A stretch of 64,000 nucleotides of DNA from Prochlorococcus marinus CUG1415 (lineage in GTDB: Bacteria > Cyanobacteriota > Cyanobacteriia > PCC-6307 > Cyanobiaceae). Numbering within the stretch: position 1 is the first letter of the stretch; every line of letters starts with the position of its first letter. The notes beneath the pieces were generated by a model, which was not told where the DNA came from, did no database searches, and saw only the letters and a list, made by a program, of their open reading frames with translations. The stretch lies in assembly GCF_017696015.1 (NCBI RefSeq), contig NZ_JAAORL010000002.1:124001-188000 (forward strand). Reading direction: 5' to 3'. Positions 8,143-63,943 of this stretch are shown piece by piece. A program made the position numbers and the translations under genes.

Positions 8143-8877
8143 GTGACTGAAAAATTCCAAAATGATATCAATAATCTCGTTGAAGAATTTAACTTTAGAG
8201 GGGTGAAAAATTTTAAATTAATTGTTTTATTTGGATTATTAGGAGACTTTGATAGTTTTGAATATGCAATAAATTTGAAAAATTTTATCGTTAATCATCC
8301 CGATAAAAATTTAGATATTTTTGCCATTGCTATTGGCAACCAAAAGGGGAAAGAAAAATTCTGTAAATTTACTGGCTTTCGTGAAGAAAATTTAATAGTT
8401 GTTTCTGACAACCAAATCCATAAGAATCTAAAAGTCTCAAGTGGATTAGATATAGGTTTAGGAGGTTGGATCAATATGCTTTTGATGCTATCTGGAATAA
8501 ATTCTTTTAAAACAATCAAAGAAGTTGTTAGAGGTTACACAGGAGACCGCAAAGCAAAGCAAATCTATTCGGAAGTTGACAAAATTGACGTTTTAAAATT
8601 TCTAAAATTTTCAGGTAATTCTTTTAGACAGGTTTTTGGGGATGGTTATTTGAGACCATTTGAATTGGCAACATTTAGATTAAATAATATGAATGAAATA
8701 ATACAAAATTGGGGCGATTATATTCTTAAGGAAGAATATCTTCCTCAAAGAGGTGCTTCTTTTATATTGAATGATAAAAATCAAGTTATTTATAAATTTT
8801 TTTCAAGTGATGTGCTTGGATATTCATCAAACATGAGGGATCCTTTACGATTTTTATCTGATTTAATTAAAGAATAA
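8143..8877 (+). CDS. Peroxiredoxin-like (AhpC/TSA_2-type) protein, tentative
   Basis: The 244-residue protein has an N-terminal LIVLFGLLGDFDSFEYA block, then LDIFAIAIGNQKGKEKFCKFTGFREENL and GDGYLRPFELATFRLNNMNEIIQNWGDY. This layout resembles the cyanobacterial peroxiredoxin-like group annotated as AhpC/TSA family. No CxxC is visible; the only plausible active Cys is the one in EKFCKFTGF, so peroxidase activity is uncertain. The start is GTG (VTEKFQ). It is divergent from flavodoxin, and the SemiSWEET gene follows 16 nt downstream. Confidence 0.55.
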   Translation: MTEKFQNDINNLVEEFNFRGVKNFKLIVLFGLLGDFDSFEYAINLKNFIVNHPDKNLDIFAIAIGNQKGKEKFCKFTGFREENLIVVSDNQIHKNLKVSSGLDIGLGGWINMLLMLSGINSFKTIKEVVRGYTGDRKAKQIYSEVDKIDVLKFLKFSGNSFRQVFGDGYLRPFELATFRLNNMNEIIQNWGDYILKEEYLPQRGASFILNDKNQVIYKFFSSDVLGYSSNMRDPLRFLSDLIKE

Positions 8878-52728: not shown

Positions 52729-54555
52729 ATGTGTGGTATTGGACTAGTAAAATTTTATAAACAAAAACCATCAACTGAATTGCTAAGTGAATGCGAAAAT
52801 ATAATTTCTTCCGAGCAGTTTAATAGGGGTCCCAATAATAGTAGTTTCTGGATAAGTGAAGATAATATGACAATGATTTGTCACCAAAGATTATCAATTT
52901 TAGATATAAGTGAGAATTCAAATCAACCATTTGAGAATAAAGATTATATTGGAAGTTTTAATGGGGAAATTTATAATTATCCTGAACTATCTAAAAAAAA
53001 TAATTTAGAATTCAAATCCGACACACTTTATTTAAAACATAATATTAATAAAAAAAATATTAGCTATCTTTTTTCAAAATTTGATGGACCTTTTGCAATT
53101 ATTTTGTATGAAAAATCAACAAAAAAGATTACTATTGCAAGGGATCCTTTTGGTGAAAAACCTCTTTTTTATTTTAAAGATAAAGAATTTTTTATCGTTG
53201 CCAGTAAAGTAAGAACCATAGTAAAAATATTGTATAAACTAGAATGTAATTTTTCTTTAAATAAAAAAAATATAATAAATATCCTAAAATATGGATACGA
53301 TCAAAATAAAAATACACCTATAAAAAAAATATTATCTTTAGATAAAGGAGAATTAGCAGCTGATAATAATAGGAATGAAAATTTAATTAAAAAACATTTT
53401 AATAAAGCAAATAATAAGGCTTTAATAAAAGAAAATTCTGATCAAATTACATTATTATTCAGGAAATTTTTTGAATCATCAATAATAGAAAAACTTAGAT
53501 CTGACGTACCATTGGGTATATTTCTTTCAGGTGGACTAGACTCTTCATTAGTTGCTGCAGCAGCTAGAAAGTTTTATTCAAATAAAATTGAGAGTTACAC
53601 TATTGATTTTGAAAATAATAAAGAATCACATTTTAAAAGAGCACAAGTCATATCTGATAAACTTGGAATAAGTAGCCATAAAATAATTTTCACTCCAGAA
53701 AAAGCTTTAAATGCAATAAAATCATTACCTTATGCCTTAACTAGTCCAGCGATAGATCCTTCGGAAATACCATTATTAGTACTATCAGAATTTGCATCTA
53801 GTAAGACACCAGTTTGTTTGTCTGGAGATGGAGCTGATGAATTATTTAATGGTTACATAAGATATCAGAGATTTCAAATTATAGAATTTTTAAGAAACGC
53901 AAAATTTAAAAATTTTATTCCTATCTTTAAATTTTTTAAACCCAAAAGCAAATTATCAAGGTATTTTAATAGTATTAATTCTATGTCTGCAGGTCAAAGT
54001 TATCTAAATATGTTTTATCAATGGTACGATAAAAATCCTTTGATAGAAGATAAAGAACAAAAAACAAGCAAAAGTGATTTTTATAAAGATGATCCATGTT
54101 TAATGGATCAAGATCTATATTTACCAGAGATTATTTTAAGAAAATCCGATAGTTGCACTATGCAATATAGCGTAGAATCTAGACTACCATTTATATCAAA
54201 AAATTTAATTAATCTTTCATATACTATTAGAAAAAATTACCCAAAATTAAAAAAGAAGGATATTTTTCTTCCTTTAATAGAATATTATCTTGGCAAAGAT
54301 ATTTTTTATCAATACATGTCTTTGCCAAAGTATGGTTTAACGGTACCTTTAGAAATGATATTTAATGATCCTTCTATTCAAAATTATTTCAATAATTATT
54401 TTAACTACGATGTAATTTCAAAATTTAATTTCCTCAATCATAATTTGATACTTAAAATATGGCATGACATAAAAATAAAAAAAGATAATTCTAATCTTTA
54501 TGGAATGTGGGCATTATTTACATTCATTCAATGGCAAACAAACTTAGATAAATAA
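52729..54555 (+). CDS. Asparagine-synthase-like glutamine amidotransferase 1
   Basis: The 608-residue protein has the class II glutaminase Cys2 (MCGIGLV), the FNGEIYNYPEL loop and ARDPFGEKPLFYF, and a synthetase PP-loop LSGGLDSS (266-273) with LSGDGADELFNGYIRYQR. The usual HRGPD of the glutaminase domain reads NRGPN, so one conserved residue is changed. AsnB relatives in polysaccharide clusters make uronamides rather than asparagine. The second copy follows 1 nt after the stop. Confidence 0.87.
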   Translation: MCGIGLVKFYKQKPSTELLSECENIISSEQFNRGPNNSSFWISEDNMTMICHQRLSILDISENSNQPFENKDYIGSFNGEIYNYPELSKKNNLEFKSDTLYLKHNINKKNISYLFSKFDGPFAIILYEKSTKKITIARDPFGEKPLFYFKDKEFFIVASKVRTIVKILYKLECNFSLNKKNIINILKYGYDQNKNTPIKKILSLDKGELAADNNRNENLIKKHFNKANNKALIKENSDQITLLFRKFFESSIIEKLRSDVPLGIFLSGGLDSSLVAAAARKFYSNKIESYTIDFENNKESHFKRAQVISDKLGISSHKIIFTPEKALNAIKSLPYALTSPAIDPSEIPLLVLSEFASSKTPVCLSGDGADELFNGYIRYQRFQIIEFLRNAKFKNFIPIFKFFKPKSKLSRYFNSINSMSAGQSYLNMFYQWYDKNPLIEDKEQKTSKSDFYKDDPCLMDQDLYLPEIILRKSDSCTMQYSVESRLPFISKNLINLSYTIRKNYPKLKKKDIFLPLIEYYLGKDIFYQYMSLPKYGLTVPLEMIFNDPSIQNYFNNYFNYDVISKFNFLNHNLILKIWHDIKIKKDNSNLYGMWALFTFIQWQTNLDK

Positions 54556-54556
54556 A

Positions 54557-56275
54557 ATGTGTGGTTTTTTTTGTTCTAATAATTTTAATTTATCAAACAA
54601 GTTATTAGATAAAGGCTTAAATTCTCTTAGAGAAAGGGGTCCAAATGAAAAGAATATTATTATCCAGGATAATATTTATTTTGGGCATACTCGATTAAGT
54701 ATTAGAGATTTAAATAAAGTAAATGCTCAACAACCCTATAAAGAAAAAAATACAAACTTTGTGATCGTTTATAATGGAGAACTTTGGAATACAGAATATT
54801 TAACAAATTATCTTTCTTGCAAAAACAAAAACTTAACTGAGGTTGAGTTAATTATTAGACTATATAAGTTATTGGGCACGGACTCTTTTAAATTACTTGA
54901 AGGAATGTTTGCCTTTACTTTATATGATCCATATAAAAAATGTTTACATATTGTGAGAGACTTTTTTGGTAAAAAACCAATTTACTACTATACAAATAAT
55001 GAATATTTCTACACTGCCTCTCTTACATCAACTCTATTTTCACTTAATATCCCTAAAATAATTAAGGATAATTTATTGCAAGATATTGTAGTATCTAGGC
55101 ATATCTATGATGGAATATATAAAGATATTTTTGAATTAAGACCAGGAAGTTTTGGTACTTATTCATTAATTAACAGATCAATAAAAATTCAAAATTATTT
55201 CAAACAAACTGATCTAATTTCTTGCAAGGATTATGAAATGAGATCAAATTCTTCAAAAGAAGAAATAAAAGAAGAGTTATCAGAATTAATTAATAATGCT
55301 ATTCATAAAAGAAAATGTGAAGAAGTAAAAAGTGGAATAATTTTATCTGGAGGAATTGATTCTTCAATAATTTCATATTATGGAAAAAAAAATAACTTTA
55401 ATTCATTCCTTCATTTAGATAGCGTAGATAATTCTGAATTAAAAGATGCGCAAAATATCGCTAAAAAACTATCTGTAAAATTAAGTCATGATTATATTGA
55501 CAAAGATAAGTTTTTTAAATTTTTAAAAAAAACAATTCAATCATGGGAATACCCACTAGTTCATAGTAATGGAGTTGGTATCTATCTTCTTGCAAAAATG
55601 GCAAAGGAAAATGGTATCAAAGTATTAATTGGAGGAGAAGGAGCAGATGAATTATTTGGTGGTTATTATTTTTATAAATCAGCATATTTATTATCAAAGT
55701 TACCTTTATTTAATAACAAATTAAATAATAAAATTTCTAAATTTTTAGATTTTTCTAAATTCAATATTCCCTTTAATTCAAATTCAATATCAAATAATTT
55801 TTCAAAAAAGCTAAATAATTATATGAATTGCTTATCTATCTTTAATGAATTTTTACCTTTTAATGAAGCTAAAGTTCAATCATTAATGCTAAGTGACTTG
55901 AATGATTATTTACAGCCACTTTTATCAAGAGCAGATCGACTGATGATGGCAAATGGTGTAGAACTAAGAATGCCATATCTAGATTTAGATTTAGCATCAT
56001 TTGCTATAAATCTTCCTTTAAAGCATAAAATAAATTTAGTGAATAATAAAATAATACTTAAAGAAAAGTTCAAAAAAATATATCCAGATATAAAAATCAA
56101 AAAAAAGACTGGTTTTTCAATTGATTATTACAAAGAATGGTTTAGAGATTATTCAAATGAAGCATTTGAAATTGTTAATTCAAAATTCGATTGCAAATTT
56201 CTACTAGATTATTATAAGAACGAAGGAAGATATGACATTATTCTTAGAATCGCATCTTTAGCTTATTTAGTATGA
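54557..56275 (+). CDS. Asparagine-synthase-like glutamine amidotransferase 2
   Basis: The 572-residue protein starts with Cys2 (MCGFFC), has RERGPNEKNI, YNGELWNTEYL, RDFFGKKPIYYY, PP-loop LSGGIDSS (263-270) and IGGEGADELFGGYYFYK. The order of domains matches AsnB/AsnO. It differs from the first copy at many places and is not a recent duplicate. It begins 1 nt after the first copy stops, and its own stop overlaps the next gene (ATGA). It probably amidates a second position or sugar. Confidence 0.88.
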   Translation: MCGFFCSNNFNLSNKLLDKGLNSLRERGPNEKNIIIQDNIYFGHTRLSIRDLNKVNAQQPYKEKNTNFVIVYNGELWNTEYLTNYLSCKNKNLTEVELIIRLYKLLGTDSFKLLEGMFAFTLYDPYKKCLHIVRDFFGKKPIYYYTNNEYFYTASLTSTLFSLNIPKIIKDNLLQDIVVSRHIYDGIYKDIFELRPGSFGTYSLINRSIKIQNYFKQTDLISCKDYEMRSNSSKEEIKEELSELINNAIHKRKCEEVKSGIILSGGIDSSIISYYGKKNNFNSFLHLDSVDNSELKDAQNIAKKLSVKLSHDYIDKDKFFKFLKKTIQSWEYPLVHSNGVGIYLLAKMAKENGIKVLIGGEGADELFGGYYFYKSAYLLSKLPLFNNKLNNKISKFLDFSKFNIPFNSNSISNNFSKKLNNYMNCLSIFNEFLPFNEAKVQSLMLSDLNDYLQPLLSRADRLMMANGVELRMPYLDLDLASFAINLPLKHKINLVNNKIILKEKFKKIYPDIKIKKKTGFSIDYYKEWFRDYSNEAFEIVNSKFDCKFLLDYYKNEGRYDIILRIASLAYLV

Positions 56276-57388: not shown

Positions 57389-58255
57389 ATGAAAATTATT
57401 ATTACTGGTGGGAATGGTTTTATTGGGAAAAATCTCATTAAATATTTAAAATTTTATAAATATGAAATTTATAGTCTTTCAATTGACTTTAATAAAGAAA
57501 ATTCCAAAAAAGCAATTGAGAAAATATTTAAAGAATTCAATCCAAATTATGTTATTCATTTAGCAGGATTAGCCCATAATAAAGATCGTGATTTATTAAA
57601 AACACCAAATAAAATCAAAAATATCAATACGAAATATCCAGTTTTTTTAGCTAATATTTGTAAATATAGTAATGTTAAAAAATTTGTATATATCAGTACT
57701 ATAGGAGTTCATGGAGAAGGATCAAAAAATAAATTAGTTAATGAGAATACAGAATACCAACCTTATAACTTATATACAATTTCAAAGATGAATGCAGAAA
57801 AAAATATAATTAAAAATTTAGAAAATAGTAAAACCAAATATACTGTTTTGAGACCTTCTTTAGTCATAGGTAAAAATGCGCCTGGGAATATAGCATCTAT
57901 AAAAAAATTAATTAAATTTAGAATACCTTTACCAATTAATGGATTTAATAATAAAAGAAATATTATTTACGTTAATGACTTATGCAATTTAATCCATAGA
58001 TGTTTAATTAATAAAAAAGCTAATAATCAAATTTTTGTTGCTTCAGGATCAAAACCCTTGACAATATTAGAGACTTTCCAAGAGGTTGCAAAAATTGAGA
58101 ATCTTAAACTAAAAAGTTTTTTAATACCAAAAGAATTAATTTTCATTTTTTTTTATTTAATTGGTAAAAAAAATATTATCAATAAATTTTCATTAAATTT
58201 ATTGATAGATTCATCAAAAGCAAAAGACCTTTTAGATTGGAATTCTCAAATATAG
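57389..58255 (+). CDS. NAD-dependent epimerase/dehydratase
   Basis: This 288-residue SDR has ITGGNGFIGKNLI, HLAGLAHNKDRDL, VYISTIGVHGEGSKNK and the Tyr-x3-Lys pair in YNLYTISKMNAEK. It then reads VLRPSLVIGKNAPGNIASIK and FNNKRNIIYVNDLCNLI. The pattern resembles the WbpV/FnlA-like UDP-hexose reductase/epimerases that act on 4-keto sugars after a CapD/WbpM step; this is an inference. It converges on the wzz gene with an 11-nt gap. Confidence 0.8.
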   Translation: MKIIITGGNGFIGKNLIKYLKFYKYEIYSLSIDFNKENSKKAIEKIFKEFNPNYVIHLAGLAHNKDRDLLKTPNKIKNINTKYPVFLANICKYSNVKKFVYISTIGVHGEGSKNKLVNENTEYQPYNLYTISKMNAEKNIIKNLENSKTKYTVLRPSLVIGKNAPGNIASIKKLIKFRIPLPINGFNNKRNIIYVNDLCNLIHRCLINKKANNQIFVASGSKPLTILETFQEVAKIENLKLKSFLIPKELIFIFFYLIGKKNIINKFSLNLLIDSSKAKDLLDWNSQI

Positions 58256-58266
58256 AATTTGATAGT

Positions 58267-59967
58267 TTAAATTAAAATACAGGAGTTAATATTAATACCT
58301 TGTAGATTTATTTTCAATAGCAATAATTCGATATCATTTTTTTTAATTAATCCCAAACTAGTTATTATGATTAAATCATTTAATTGTTTTTTAGAATCTA
58401 ATATATTAGGACTGGAAATAATGTCTTTATTTATTTTATTATTTAACCTTTCTGAAAAACTACTCAATTTTTGATTATCCAAATCGCCCAAAAATAAAAA
58501 AGAAATTTTTTCATTTTCATGTTTTTCATATAAATTATTTACTAAAAATTGAATACTTGTCTCTTCATTGTTTTTTATTAGATCGGATAAATTTATTATA
58601 TTAGATATTGGTAAAAGTTCATTTAATTCACTTTGATCGAAAATTATACTTCCTTTCTTTTCCTTTAAATAAGAAATTAATAATCCAATTAATAAACCTA
58701 AAAAACTACCTAAAAAAACAATTCTTTTTTTAATTGGTTCTACAGGATTAGGAAATAAAGTAGGTTCTGTAATTAAATTCCATGGCTCCTTTATTTTCTG
58801 CTTCTCTAACTCTAAAACTCTTAACTGACTTTGTAAGGTTTCATAAACCTTAACATCTCTATTAGCATTTCTGATCAGACTTTGATATTTAACAAGGATT
58901 TCTTGGGGTCTTTTTGCAGCTGCAACGATTGTTTGATTTTTAATTTTGAGAGCTCCAAAATAGCGTGGAACTTCTATTCTTAGATTTTTAATCAAATTAG
59001 ACTTTATTTTTTTCAATCTAGTAATTTGAAAATCATTTTCTTTATAAACGTTTCTCAAACTTTCTAACTCTGAATCAATATAATTAAAATCATTTTTTTT
59101 AAGGGGATATACTATTTTGACAAACGCATAGAAATCATTATCATTTTCTAATAATTGAAGTTTTTCTATAATTTCATCATATCTTCTAATAGATGATGCA
59201 GCACTTACACGAGAGGCTCCAAATTCAGTTGGTTTAAAAGGAGAATCAAGATTCTCTTCCCCTAGGTTCAAACTATTTTGACCAGCAAAATCTATGTTTT
59301 TGCCAATACTCGATGGACTTAAAAGATCATTATTAATAGCAAAATTTTCAGCTTTACTTAGAGAATCCTCGCTAATAAATTTATACTTTTTAATTTGATC
59401 TTTTAGATATATAACTCCATTATTTAAATCATTAATTCTATCTTTACCTGAATATTTTTGATAAGAATTGCTAATCTTTTGCAAAACTGGTAAGATTAAA
59501 TCTTTGTCTGAATCTCGATAAACTAAATTCAAAACACTAGTTCCTTTAATTAATTCCACTTTCACACTACTTTTAAGCCAATCAGCATATCTCCATCTTT
59601 CTAATTGTTGCCCCTTTGAAATCTTGCTTTCTTTTACAAAATTAAAATTTTCAAATAAAACAGATGGACTTTTAAGTATTTGAACTTCAGTATTAAGTTT
59701 CTTATCTTCATTCGCTCCTAAAAGATTCAATATTGTGGGATCTACTTCTAAAAGTTTCGAGACAGTCGATGAACTAGTATCTCTCAATAAGATCTGAAAT
59801 TCACCTTGCCATATCTTTTGAGCTAAAAAAGAATAAATCGTGCTTAAAAAAGCAGAAAATGCTAATATTTTTAATAATAAGTATCTATTCCTTGATAAAA
59901 ACTTGAAATAGCTTTGCAGTACATCTAGCTCATTATCATTATCACTAGGAAGAGATTGTTTAAGCAT
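58267..59967 (-). CDS. Wzz/GumC-type polysaccharide chain-length/co-polymerase protein
   Basis: The 566-residue inner-membrane protein has helix 1 at about residues 33-55 (LLLKILAFSAFLSTIYSFLA) and a long coiled periplasmic part. Helix 2 is at about 414-433 (RIVFLGSFLGLLIGLLISYL), preceded by the Pro-rich TLFPNPVEPIKK typical of Wzz. The C-terminal cytoplasmic part (about 435-566) resembles a tyrosine-kinase-type fold but has no Walker A, so it is probably inactive. Residues 325-368 have a near-identical extra copy in the opposite direction at 60126-60255. wza is divergent. Confidence 0.88.
   Translation of the reverse strand: MLKQSLPSDNDNELDVLQSYFKFLSRNRYLLLKILAFSAFLSTIYSFLAQKIWQGEFQILLRDTSSSTVSKLLEVDPTILNLLGANEDKKLNTEVQILKSPSVLFENFNFVKESKISKGQQLERWRYADWLKSSVKVELIKGTSVLNLVYRDSDKDLILPVLQKISNSYQKYSGKDRINDLNNGVIYLKDQIKKYKFISEDSLSKAENFAINNDLLSPSSIGKNIDFAGQNSLNLGEENLDSPFKPTEFGASRVSAASSIRRYDEIIEKLQLLENDNDFYAFVKIVYPLKKNDFNYIDSELESLRNVYKENDFQITRLKKIKSNLIKNLRIEVPRYFGALKIKNQTIVAAAKRPQEILVKYQSLIRNANRDVKVYETLQSQLRVLELEKQKIKEPWNLITEPTLFPNPVEPIKKRIVFLGSFLGLLIGLLISYLKEKKGSIIFDQSELNELLPISNIINLSDLIKNNEETSIQFLVNNLYEKHENEKISFLFLGDLDNQKLSSFSERLNNKINKDIISSPNILDSKKQLNDLIIITSLGLIKKNDIELLLLKINLQGININSCILI
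58865..58994 (-). repeat. Long inverted repeat, arm 1 (inside wzz)
   Basis: The segment pairs base for base with 60126-60255 in reverse complement (58865 matches 60255). I count 6 mismatches in 130 bases: plus-copy positions 60127, 60133, 60143, 60194, 60242 and 60247. It covers codons 325-368 of the wzz gene. Confidence 0.93.
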
Positions 59968-60109
59968 AAATGATTTATATTTTAATCTTCAAATTAACAT
60001 ATTTATAGTTCAATAAAAGTCAATATTTTAATAAGTAAATTAATTTATACTTTAAGTTTATTACTATAAATTGCTGATAAATTGGCCTTAATTTAATATT
60101 AGTCTTTAG

Positions 60110-60289
60110 ATTACAATCCAAAGAGTAATTAATAATCTAAGATTAGAAGTTCCACGCTATTTTGGAGCTCTCAAAATTAAAAATCAAACAATCTTTGCAG
60201 CTGCAAAAAGACCCCAAGAAATCCTTGTTAAATATCAAAGTTTGATTAGAAATGCCTCGAGTTTACTAAAGATAAAAGATAAATTTTAA
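60110..60289 (+). pseudogene. Second, truncated wzz fragment in opposite orientation
   Basis: Reading plus strand from just after a TAG (60107) to TAA (60287), the frame gives ITIQRVINN, then NLRLEVPRYFGALKIKNQTI, then FAAAKRPQEILVKYQ and SLIRNA. That is the Wzz middle segment with only two substitutions (Leu for Ile, Phe for Val) over 41 residues. It then ends with SSLLKIKDKF, which is unlike Wzz. There is no start codon, no membrane helices and no rest of the gene. It is a remnant of an allelic wzz or of a partial inverted duplication, lying in the divergent promoter region of wzz and wza. Confidence 0.9.
60126..60255 (+). repeat. Long inverted repeat, arm 2 (upstream of wza)
   Basis: It is about 95 percent identical (124 of 130 by hand count) to the reverse complement of 58865-58994. 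The 1,131 bases between the arms hold the first 324 codons of wzz and its promoter region, so recombination between arms would flip that segment. Confidence 0.93.
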
Positions 60290-60352
60290 TCCTTAAAATA
60301 TAATTTTTAAAGTAAATTATTATGTATAATTATTTATAAGAGTTTTTGTAAT

Positions 60353-61504
60353 ATGAAATTTATACAATTTTTAATAACTTTAGTACCTACATATATTTTT
60401 TTTGTAGGAAACTTATCTTTAAATGCTTATGCTTCTCAAGAAGAATTTTCAGAAAATTTTCCTACAATAGAATATCTCAAAACAAAATCAAATGAAGACT
60501 ACATTTTAGGAACTGGAGATGTCATTGAGATTAAGTTCTCCAAAGAAGCTCCTGAATTAAATAAATTAGTTTCGATAGATATAAATGGCACGATTTTTTT
60601 AGAGAGAATTAATAGAATTTATATTTCCGGATTATCTATCTCAGAACTTACAAGCCTATTAAACAAAAAATATGCAGACTTTCTTATTGATCCAAATGTA
60701 GAAATATTAGTAAAAAAATATAGACCAATTAAGGTATTTGTTAATGGAGAGGTAGAGAGTCCTGGAATTTATATGTTAAGTGGTTTTAATGGATTAGTTA
60801 AACCAACTATTAACGAGTTTGGGAATATAAATAATGATCCAAATTTTAAAAATCCTTATAAAATTAATTCAAGTTTATCAGAAACATCAACTTACTTATC
60901 ACCCACATTATTTGATGCTATTCAACAAGCTGGGGGGATAAGTCTTTACTCTGACATAACAAAAATTCAAATCACTAGGATCGACACCATAAGTAATGGA
61001 AAAGGTAAAAAAATAGCTATTATTAATTTTCTTGAGATGCTTAGAGATGGAAACCAAGCAGTAAATATTCCTCTTTACGATGGAGATACGATTTATATAC
61101 CTAAATCTAAAAATAAGGCCTCAATTGAATTAATGAAGGCTATCAATACTAATATAAATCCAAAATATATTAGAGTTTTTGTAAGTGGCAGAGTAAAAAA
61201 TTCTGGTTTAATAGCTGCCCCAAATAATTCCACATTAAATGATGCATTAAAATTAGCTGGAGGTTCATTTTTGAAGGGGAAAATTCAATTCTCTAGATTA
61301 ATGCAAGGCGGCGGAATTGATCAAAGAAAATTTAATGCTAGGAATGGAAGCATTCCAGGTTCTTATAAAAATCCTTATTTAAAAAATGGAGATATAATTT
61401 ATGTTGGCAAAGGTGGATTTAATATTGCTTCTGAAATTATCAAGGAAATAACTGAACCATTTATAGGGATAAATGCAACTAAAAATGTTTTAGATAGTTG
61501 GTAA
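60353..61504 (+). CDS. Wza-like polysaccharide export protein (SLBB)
   Basis: The 383-residue exported protein has a Sec signal (about residues 1-27, ending NAYAS) without a lipobox Cys. It has an export domain YILGTGDVIEIKFSKEAPEL (about 50-69), then IKVFVNGEVESPGIYMLSGF and two SLBB-type repeats (TLFDAIQQAGGISLYSDITK and IRVFVSGRVKNSGLIAAPNN). Wza/GfcE proteins form the outer-membrane exit channel and work with Wzz-type partners, here the divergent gene. The start fits the signal peptide. Confidence 0.92.
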   Translation: MKFIQFLITLVPTYIFFVGNLSLNAYASQEEFSENFPTIEYLKTKSNEDYILGTGDVIEIKFSKEAPELNKLVSIDINGTIFLERINRIYISGLSISELTSLLNKKYADFLIDPNVEILVKKYRPIKVFVNGEVESPGIYMLSGFNGLVKPTINEFGNINNDPNFKNPYKINSSLSETSTYLSPTLFDAIQQAGGISLYSDITKIQITRIDTISNGKGKKIAIINFLEMLRDGNQAVNIPLYDGDTIYIPKSKNKASIELMKAINTNINPKYIRVFVSGRVKNSGLIAAPNNSTLNDALKLAGGSFLKGKIQFSRLMQGGGIDQRKFNARNGSIPGSYKNPYLKNGDIIYVGKGGFNIASEIIKEITEPFIGINATKNVLDSW

Positions 61505-61517
61505 ACCCAAAATTACA

Positions 61518-62231
61518 ATGATCAAAGAAAAAAGTTTAAAGCATCTAGCATTTATTCCAGCTAGGGGAGGTTCAAAGGGGGTACCAGGTAAGAATATGAG
61601 GCTTATTGATGGCAAGCCATTACTTTACTTAAGTTTAGAATGGGCAGTTTCAACAAATGGATTTTCTAATATATTTGTATCAACAGATTGTCCAATCACT
61701 TTGGAATATGCTCTAAAACGTGGAGCACTTAATAGCAGAATAAGACCAGCTACAAAAAATTTTGATTTACAAACTGCTGATGAATTATTAAAACAATGCC
61801 AACTTAGTGGCGATTTAAAACTAGAAAACTATGATTATCTTTGGTACCTACAGCCAACTTCACCTCTTAGAAAAAAAATAATGTATAAAAAGATTTTATC
61901 ATTAATAAAAAAATTTAAACAACCTAATTCGCTTATTAGTGTTACTTCTGTACCAAAAGAGTATAATTCAGAATGGCAATTTTCATTGGATAATAAGGGT
62001 CTCTTAACTTTAGAAAATTCCTCTATAATTACAAGAAGACAAGATTTACCTAAAAGATGCATAAGAGATGGACGTTTTTATATAGTCAAAACAGATCACG
62101 TTTTGCAAGGAGGAAAATTAGTTAGTGATAAATCAATCCCTATTTTTCTGGATGAGTTTAAACATGTTAATGTTGACTCAATAGAAGATTGGATTGAAGC
62201 TAAAGAATTATGTGCGGAATATTATTTTTAA
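61518..62231 (+). CDS. CMP-ulosonate (NeuA/sialate-type) cytidylyltransferase
   Basis: The 237-residue protein starts with the NeuA signature AFIPARGGSKGVPGKNMRLI (11-30) and continues with FVSTDCPITLEYALKRGA, LWYLQPTSPLRKK and IRDGRFYIVKTDHVL. It activates a nonulosonic acid (sialic, legionaminic or pseudaminic type) or a similar keto-acid with CTP. No NeuB or other ulosonate synthase lies in the window, so partners are probably beyond 64000. The next gene starts 22 nt before this stop codon. Confidence 0.88.
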   Translation: MIKEKSLKHLAFIPARGGSKGVPGKNMRLIDGKPLLYLSLEWAVSTNGFSNIFVSTDCPITLEYALKRGALNSRIRPATKNFDLQTADELLKQCQLSGDLKLENYDYLWYLQPTSPLRKKIMYKKILSLIKKFKQPNSLISVTSVPKEYNSEWQFSLDNKGLLTLENSSIITRRQDLPKRCIRDGRFYIVKTDHVLQGGKLVSDKSIPIFLDEFKHVNVDSIEDWIEAKELCAEYYF

Positions 62232-63943
62232 ACTCAAGTCAAAACCTTAATTCTCCTGAAAAAAGTAAATTCAAAAGATCCATTAAGCTTTTAGATCATA
62301 GGGGACCAGATAATAATGATATTTTTTTTACAGAAAAATTTGCTTTAGGTCATACTAGATTAAGTATTATTGATTTATCAAATAAATCAAATCAACCATT
62401 TTTCAGTAAAAATGATAAAAAATATTTTGCAATAAATGGAGAGATTATTAATTATAAAATTCTAGCGAATAAATATAATTATAACGATGAAGATTATGGT
62501 TCTGACTCTGATTTAGTTTTCAAACTATTCACAAAGTATGGATTTAAAAATATAATTAATGAATTAGAAGGAATGTTTGCAGGAATTTTTATTGATTGTA
62601 ATAAAAATGAAAGTTATATTTTTAGAGATAGATTTGGGATAAAACCTCTTTACTATATTAATTCAAAAAATAGGTTTTTAGCATCTAGTGAAATAAATTC
62701 ACTTTTACCTTTTTTAGATAAGGTCGAAATTTTTAAACCAGTTGTAAAAGATTTCATATTAGATGGAAATATAGATCATTCTTCAAATACATTCTTTAAT
62801 AACATACACCAATTAAGAAGTGGATCATATATTAAATTAGAACTAAATAGCCAAAAAATAAATATAAATAAATGGTATGAGCCAGGATTTTCTTGCCCAG
62901 CTTCCAAATTAAGTTTTGATGATGCAACTGAAAATTTAGAAATTATTCTTAAAGAAATACTGGAGCAAAATTATATTTCTGATGTACCTTTAGCTATTAA
63001 TTTATCTGAAGGAATAGATTCTACCTTATTGTCATTTTTATCAGAATTAACAAATCAAAATCCATATGCATATTCTATGAAATATGGATTAGAAGAATTA
63101 GACGAATACTATAAATTACAGTCAATAAATTTTAATAGAGAATTTATAGAATATGATTATTTATCATTTTTAGAACATGCTAAAGATGTAATAAGACATC
63201 AAGGACAACCTTTCACAGGAATGTTTACAGTTGCATATTCAATTTTATATCAAACGTCTAAAGCTGCTGGATATAAAGTCCATCTAGATGGGAACGGGAT
63301 AGATGAAATATTCCTAGGATATGATAAATATCTAAGAAAAAATTCGAAAACTTTTAACAAATCTTTGTCCGGAGAAATATATCAAAATTACGATTTCTAT
63401 AATAAAGATCTTATTAACTCGCCTAATTCACTGACCATTAAAAACATAATATCAAATTTGCCTTCGGGAATTAGTGAAAAGAGGAAGGCAGCTTTTATTG
63501 ATTTGTTTTATTTAAAAATTCCCCGAGTACTTAGATTTAATGATTGTGTATCTATGCAGCATTCTTGTGAATTAAGGGTCCCTTTTTTAGATCATAGATT
63601 ACTTGATTTTTCAAATACTTTACCAACTGATTATTTAATAAGTGATACTAAAGGTATGGGTAAATTAATAATAAGAAATATCCTTAAAAAACATTTTGGG
63701 GAAAAGTTTTCTTTTTCTAAAAAAAGATACATCCAAACTAATCAAACGAATTTATTATTAAAAGAAATGAATAATTTATTAAGGAATACACTTTTAAGTG
63801 ATAGATTCTTTTCAAGAAATATTGTGGATCCCTATAAATTTAAAACCCATATAAATAGGCTTAATGAAAAAAATTTAAAAAATTCATATTATTTATGGAG
63901 ATTACTTTCATACGAATGGTGGTGTCAGCAATTCATCGATTAA
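62210..63943 (+). CDS. Asparagine-synthase-like glutamine amidotransferase 3
   Basis: The 577-residue protein has Cys2 (MCGILFL), LLDHRGPDNNDIFF, INGEIINYKIL and RDRFGIKPLYYINSK in the glutaminase part, so this domain looks intact. The PP-loop reads LSEGIDST (265-272), with Glu for the first Gly, and HLDGNGIDEIFLGYDKYL replaces the usual GDGADE, so the synthetase site is altered. It may use a different acceptor or have weak activity. It overlaps the cytidylyltransferase by 22 nt, indicating coupled translation. The window ends 57 nt later. Confidence 0.86.
   Translation: MCGILFLNSSQNLNSPEKSKFKRSIKLLDHRGPDNNDIFFTEKFALGHTRLSIIDLSNKSNQPFFSKNDKKYFAINGEIINYKILANKYNYNDEDYGSDSDLVFKLFTKYGFKNIINELEGMFAGIFIDCNKNESYIFRDRFGIKPLYYINSKNRFLASSEINSLLPFLDKVEIFKPVVKDFILDGNIDHSSNTFFNNIHQLRSGSYIKLELNSQKININKWYEPGFSCPASKLSFDDATENLEIILKEILEQNYISDVPLAINLSEGIDSTLLSFLSELTNQNPYAYSMKYGLEELDEYYKLQSINFNREFIEYDYLSFLEHAKDVIRHQGQPFTGMFTVAYSILYQTSKAAGYKVHLDGNGIDEIFLGYDKYLRKNSKTFNKSLSGEIYQNYDFYNKDLINSPNSLTIKNIISNLPSGISEKRKAAFIDLFYLKIPRVLRFNDCVSMQHSCELRVPFLDHRLLDFSNTLPTDYLISDTKGMGKLIIRNILKKHFGEKFSFSKKRYIQTNQTNLLLKEMNNLLRNTLLSDRFFSRNIVDPYKFKTHINRLNEKNLKNSYYLWRLLSYEWWCQQFID

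Follow-up and report, generated by a model that had tools for sequence, protein, structure and literature searches.

A short piece of the chain-length determinant gene wzz stands, in inverted orientation, between the intact gene and the export gene wza in the surface-polysaccharide island of Prochlorococcus marinus CUG1415. We describe this arrangement within a window of 64,000 nucleotides (C2:124001-188000), drawn from a genome of two contigs and 1,734,399 bases that is 100% complete, and conclude that, most likely, it is a scar left when wzz flipped long ago, and not a functioning on/off switch. More specifically, we consider it moderately probable that an in-place inversion of wzz duplicated part of the gene, and that the old copy was then mostly deleted. 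The observations that bear on this reading are the repeat itself, the lack of further copies in the genome, the orientation rule followed by the genus, the placement of both proteins in trees, and a short epimerase gene at the far junction; we infer that all of them belong to one event.

Layout of the locus

The genes at the site are ordered as an epimerase gene (+), wzz (-), the wzz fragment (+) and wza (+). The first (57389-58255) encodes an NAD-dependent sugar epimerase/dehydratase of 288 amino acids (PF01370, E 3.9e-29) whose C-terminus is, by comparison with homologs, probably truncated after LDWN. Its stop codon lies 11 bp from that of wzz, and the interval 58244-58266, in which the end of the epimerase core abuts the 3' end of the minus-strand wzz, is from the alignment of homologs a probable inversion junction. 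The gene wzz (58267-59967), recognized as an open reading frame with a Pfam match, encodes a polysaccharide co-polymerase or chain-length determinant of 566 amino acids; its match to Wzz (PF02706, E 2.4e-8) scores 34.6 bits, above the cut-off of 25.5, while that to GNVR (PF13807) scores 19.7 bits, under its cut-off of 27.7. Hydrophobic stretches at about residues 30-49 and 412-435 (peaks from about 30 and 412-417) form two predicted membrane helices. Between the wzz start and the fragment lies the stretch 59968-60127, whose right end is a second probable inversion junction. Beyond the fragment, a spacer (60256-60352) without significant DNA similarity to wzz carries codons for SSLLKIKDKF and a stop, and is followed by wza (60353-61504, +), which encodes a polysaccharide export protein of 383 amino acids with PF02563 (E 2.4e-15) and SLBB domains.

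Judged from this layout, the wzz promoter should be in 59968-60127, unless it lies beyond the fragment. A scan of 59900-60400 returned four promoter-like sites, each of them on the minus strand, which is the chance level (4.4 expected in shuffles); no terminator was found in the same interval, and with a folding z of 0.12 for 60256-60360 we claim no RNA element. The same polysaccharide island also holds four putative genes, at 52729-54555, 54557-56275 and 62210-63943 of the window and at 15-1865 of stretch L063, which we take to be asparagine-synthase-like from their MCG starts; between two of these genes, a stretch of 94 bases is 73% identical at the DNA level.

The inverted repeat

A repeat search delimited two arms of 128 nt, 58865-58992 and 60128-60255, that are 96% complementary and 1135 nt apart, in agreement with the spacing of 1.13 kb given in a preliminary description of this DNA. 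That description had also read 60126-60255 as wzz codons 325-368 repeated in the opposite direction, with six mismatches in 130 bases, which proved exact to the base. When extended to 130 bases (58865-58994, within wzz on the minus strand, and 60126-60255, in the direction of wza), the aligned arms differ in codons 365, 364, 348, 331, 327 and 325, with five of the six mismatches falling inside the 128-nt arm. Unbroken identity extends over 47 and 50 bases in the two longest runs, and arm divergence is 3-5%. Once the mismatch at the edge (codon 327) is set aside, two of the four in the 128-base arm are synonymous, as could be expected for functionless DNA, though four changes prove little. The fragment is now probably without function, and occasional recombination between the arms could still take place.

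An in-silico flip of 58865-60255 bore out the earlier claim that inversion would fuse wzz in frame to the fragment: it yields a Wzz of 378 amino acids ending in SSLLKIKDKF (C-terminal sequence ...RNASSLLKIKDKF), with its stop codon at 60287-60289, 63 bp ahead of the wza start. As had likewise been anticipated, the flipped protein is without the second predicted membrane helix, the stretch at about 412-435 being gone and that at about 30-49 kept.

Within the window the repeat has a BLAST E of 6e-54, against 1e-5 for the next self-match, and in the whole 1.73-Mb genome the fragment matches just these two places at E <= 0.001. A query of 2,086 bases comprising wzz and the spacer adds three genome matches of 29-56 bases (E 0.003-0.006), which we take as chance. 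Other repeats were sampled in 400 kb of the genome (20 stretches of 20 kb). One of these, C2:4001-24000, holds a 146-bp inverted pair, 95.9% identical, which is one of a group of scattered copies that overlap a tRNA-Pro gene; beyond this stretch, the sole other inverted pair at E <= 1e-8 is 64% identical over about 1.1 kb (stretch L104). In C2:4001-24000, a tRNA-Pro(TGG) lies at 591-665 and another tRNA-Pro is called at 8194-8265; the dispersed copies, of about 40-330 bp and in both orientations, overlap the 3' part of the tRNA, with one piece of 50 bases 100% identical; they look like repeated integration scars. A large block of direct repeats at about 8230-16300 of C2:64001-84000, spaced by about 153 bases or by multiples of this distance, is perhaps a long gene for a repetitive protein.

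The comparison with related genomes that the preliminary description had proposed gave no counterpart: at E <= 1e-6, nothing in 148 other genomes, which are distant relatives, matches the fragment DNA, none of 82 fetched and partly overlapping wzz or wza loci holds an internal repeat at E <= 1e-8, and no intermediates of an inversion were seen in either set. When the fragment with both flanks (59968-60360) was searched against 266 genomes of the genus, its own included, with two candidates scored per genome, 220 genomes had matches at E <= 0.01; among the matches listed outside its own genome, all are AT-rich and 23-113 bp long, and are taken as chance. Neither phage records (blastn) nor viral contigs (exact 38-base pattern) gave a match. 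At the protein level, the best-scoring match to the window Wzz in 196 other genomes has 37% amino acid identity (partial matches reach 39%), and the fragment shares 96% identity with the wzz beside it; it therefore comes from this wzz or from a close allele. For Wza, the best-scoring match in 265 other genomes has 51% identity (genome G080) and is a member of a pair in which wzz precedes wza. One relative carries a decayed copy of wzz (G010:C8:23981-24583; 27% identity, nine internal stop codons), and from this copy it is clear that the genus does contain pseudogenes of wzz.

Orientation of wzz and wza across the genus

The orientation of the two genes was surveyed across the genus in 265 further genomes, the window being excluded, with a Pfam search for Wzz and matches to Wza down to E 1e-20. 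The 114 Wzz places found comprise 80 mid-length (480-660 amino acids), 22 long (690 amino acids or more) and 12 short or partial. We counted a listed wza as near if no more than 2.6 kb separated it from the Wzz domain. A mid-length Wzz with a near wza is on the same strand as wza at 51 of 51 loci in 50 genomes (38 with wza before wzz, 13 with wzz before wza, and none opposite); the remaining 29 of the 80 places have no near wza. A smaller, earlier count of 45 places gave 20 with wza first, 4 with wzz first and none opposite, the other 21 having no wza nearby. The window pair, by contrast, is divergent, and is the sole divergent pair found with a mid-length Wzz.

A near wza accompanies 15 of the 22 long Wzz places, and all 15 pairs are divergent; by their length, these long Wzz-domain proteins are putative kinase-type Wzc. 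A divergent layout is thus normal for long Wzz in this genus, which counts against the inversion reading. Among the 12 short or partial places, 2 have wza before wzz, 1 is divergent and 9 have no near wza. Throughout the genus, the long (divergent) and mid-length (co-directional) layouts do not mix.

Phylogenetic placement of the pair

Trees of Wza and of Wzz were built separately from all 13 wzz-first loci, 20 of the 38 wza-first loci and the window. In the Wza tree, the smallest well-supported set that includes the window has 16 rows, made up of 13 wzz-first loci, 2 wza-first loci and the window itself (100/100), and a 16-row set of the same make-up surrounds the window in the Wzz tree (100/99), some parts of which join long branches. 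Support applies to the 16-row set as a whole rather than to the position of the window within it. Because both trees place the window in this set, its pair is, on sequence grounds, assigned to the wzz-first kind; since two wza-first rows share the same splits, the ancestral order is not certain. At wzz-first loci, a complete wzz stands directly before wza on the same strand, where the fragment stands in the window.

The epimerase end

The epimerase of the window ends in LDWNSQI, where homologs commonly read LDWxPP(Y/F)S..GL..T..WF. We compared it with 18 homologs (27-34% identical), 17 of which run 12-39 residues past its end; the PP of this motif is present in 15 of those 17, and the eighteenth, aligned to residue 265 only, ends early. 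It is probable, as the simplest reading of the alignment, that a breakpoint clipped the epimerase gene and brought the 3' end of wzz up to the cut, and the enzyme may be impaired by the loss of its tail.

If the inversion was a simple one, the lost tail is expected on the minus strand next to 60127. A search there with 16 tails found only four residues (YSLD) that fit, with P 0.012 by shuffles and 0.065 by pieces of the genome itself, or 0.0006 and 0.023, respectively, when an open frame of 35 codons is also required. Ungapped full-length scoring of the tails at 60127 is poor, the best ranking about 1,100th in the window. Several related candidates were tried and rejected. With seven tails, a match anywhere in the left flank has P 0.335 and one at the edge P 0.036 (shuffles) or 0.107 (window pieces); adding the open frame to the edge match gives P 0.0007 by shuffles, yet this is equalled by 17 of 678 overlapping windows from nine real intergenic stretches. 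As a divergent wzz remnant, SSLLKIKDKF offers three residues at best, in another frame (P 0.013 by shuffles, 0.035 by window pieces). The left flank of the fragment as a wzz remnant has P 0.75, and DNA alignments of both flanks to wzz, as further wzz DNA, have P 0.43-0.72. The left flank compared with its own reverse complement has P 0.047.

Probable inversion in place and alternative explanations

The reading that we favor would begin with a co-directional pair in which wzz preceded wza, both on the plus strand. A local inversion of about 2 kb would have reversed wzz, with one break close to where the upstream epimerase gene ends, costing that gene its conserved tail, and the other in the wzz/wza region, where staggered breaks or a switch of template during replication could have duplicated the 3' part of wzz in inverted form. 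The full gene would thereby end up on the minus strand, and a 5'-truncated copy would stay in its old place and direction before wza, from which a later deletion of codons 369-566 would leave codons 325-368. Three features expected of such a scar are seen at the locus: the orientation of wzz differs from that at all 51 comparable loci of relatives, a duplicate lies on the plus strand before wza, presumably in the old place of the gene, and the gene at the other breakpoint is without its tail, having probably been cut by the inversion.

The preliminary description had left the choice between a switch and a scar open, and had explained the scar by replacement of one wzz allele by another. The scar is supported by orientation, trees and the short epimerase, and beyond its geometry nothing else speaks for the switch; as to how the scar arose, inversion of wzz in place relative to wza fits better than allele replacement because of the uniform orientation at the 51 loci, the trees and the truncated epimerase at the far junction. 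Replacement would have brought in a block with wzz on the minus strand in exchange for a resident plus-strand wzz of nearly the same allele, of which the fragment would be the rest, and we hold it to be unlikely. It would suit the want of close relatives of wzz and wza in the genomes searched, as well as an arm divergence of 3-5%, the sort that separates two alleles in one population, and exchange of O-chain clusters through homologous recombination is described in aquatic bacteria (PMC4033161). Donor and resident, however, would have to share an allele whose best match in 196 other genomes is 37% identical, the window Wzz and Wza both group with wzz-first lineages, and replacement alone leaves the reversed orientation unexplained. 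Less probable again is a purely local copy, in which a template switch placed 128 bp of wzz, inverted, before wza, with no relation to the orientation of wzz or to the short epimerase. A single event would then be enough for the repeat, no further wzz DNA is found in the flanks, and template switching between inverted repeats is described in the yeast lineage (PMC8604942); the divergent layout and the truncated epimerase would nevertheless become coincidences.

An active invertible switch would also use the arms, with recombination of the RecA type between the 128-bp copies flipping a 1.39-kb segment that bears the wzz start and promoter, so that full Wzz alternates with the 378-residue form read together with wza. 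Geometry and frame would permit this, as would the long identical runs, and inversion between inverted repeats of gene remnants occurs in plate-grown meningococci (PMC5349592). Frequent flipping with conversion of the arms should nevertheless have erased their 3-5% difference, the fragment is unmatched in the 148 other genomes and the repeat absent from the 82 loci, and the flipped product is without the second membrane helix, which in Escherichia coli WzzB faces the chamber (PMC7809406). There is no match to serine or tyrosine recombinases within about 280 kb of the segment: PF00239 gave one match, about 283 kb distant on the same contig, and PF00589 gave two, both on the other contig. Even as a rare contingency switch it thus seems to us very improbable. 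Whole-genome amplification is known to create inverted chimeras as artefacts, and many records of the genus appear, from their isolate codes, to be single-cell genomes; a chimeric join introduced by amplification or assembly should nonetheless have left nearly identical arms rather than diverged ones, and a complete genome in two contigs is unlike those of amplified single cells, so that such an origin is scarcely credible.

Relation to known systems and implications

No comparable remnant of wzz was mentioned in the paper titles and opening lines of abstracts that were searched. In the cps island of Neisseria meningitidis, galE1 and a truncated galE2 remnant lie in the inverted repeats Regions D and D', where the remnant is interpreted as a recombination scar and inversion has been seen by PCR in culture (PMC5349592). 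The window shares with that system an intact polysaccharide-locus gene, an inverted and truncated remnant at the same locus, and a repeat that permits inversion (PMC5349592). The meningococcal repeat, found in encapsulated meningococci, is long (galE plus rfbBAC) and flanks the whole synthesis cassette, and its inversion was demonstrated by PCR (PMC5349592), whereas the wzz repeat is 128 bp long and known from the sequence of one genome. By analogy, the window locus is of the same kind as the galE2 remnant, at a smaller scale, and this is the nearest case found.

Promoter inversions in Bacteroides fragilis take place at short recombinase sites and are carried out by dedicated invertases. As in those capsular inversions, a promoter-bearing segment of a polysaccharide locus lies between inverted repeats in the window (PMC3090145, PMC10939037). 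Unlike them, its repeat is derived from a gene and lies inside coding DNA, with no nearby match to two recombinase families. Under the staggered-break model, inversions leave inverted duplications at their breakpoints. Drosophila inversions with such duplications have inverted breakpoint copies at both ends that later decay, a likeness to the present case (PMC7584159, PMC3355041). The fly inversions are of chromosome scale, whereas here a bacterium would have turned about 2 kb, with one duplicate nearly gone. Within the genus, the window proteins belong to the same families (Poly_export and Wzz) as other wza-wzz pairs and fall inside their trees, and it is in being divergent that the pair differs from its co-directional mid-length counterparts.

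Were the arms to serve as a switch after all, the wzz promoter would in the flipped state read into wza 63 bp downstream, and a gene-remnant repeat would act as a rare contingency switch for surface polysaccharide in a streamlined marine cyanobacterium. As a scar, the locus would instead document a surface-polysaccharide island rearranging from within, with a chain-length regulator turned and thereby separated from its partner, the export gene, and with the gene of a neighboring enzyme clipped. Small events of this kind, besides the exchange of islands, can alter the outer surface that phages see, and the leftover repeat bears on the question of whether a streamlined genome can flip segments by way of gene remnants.
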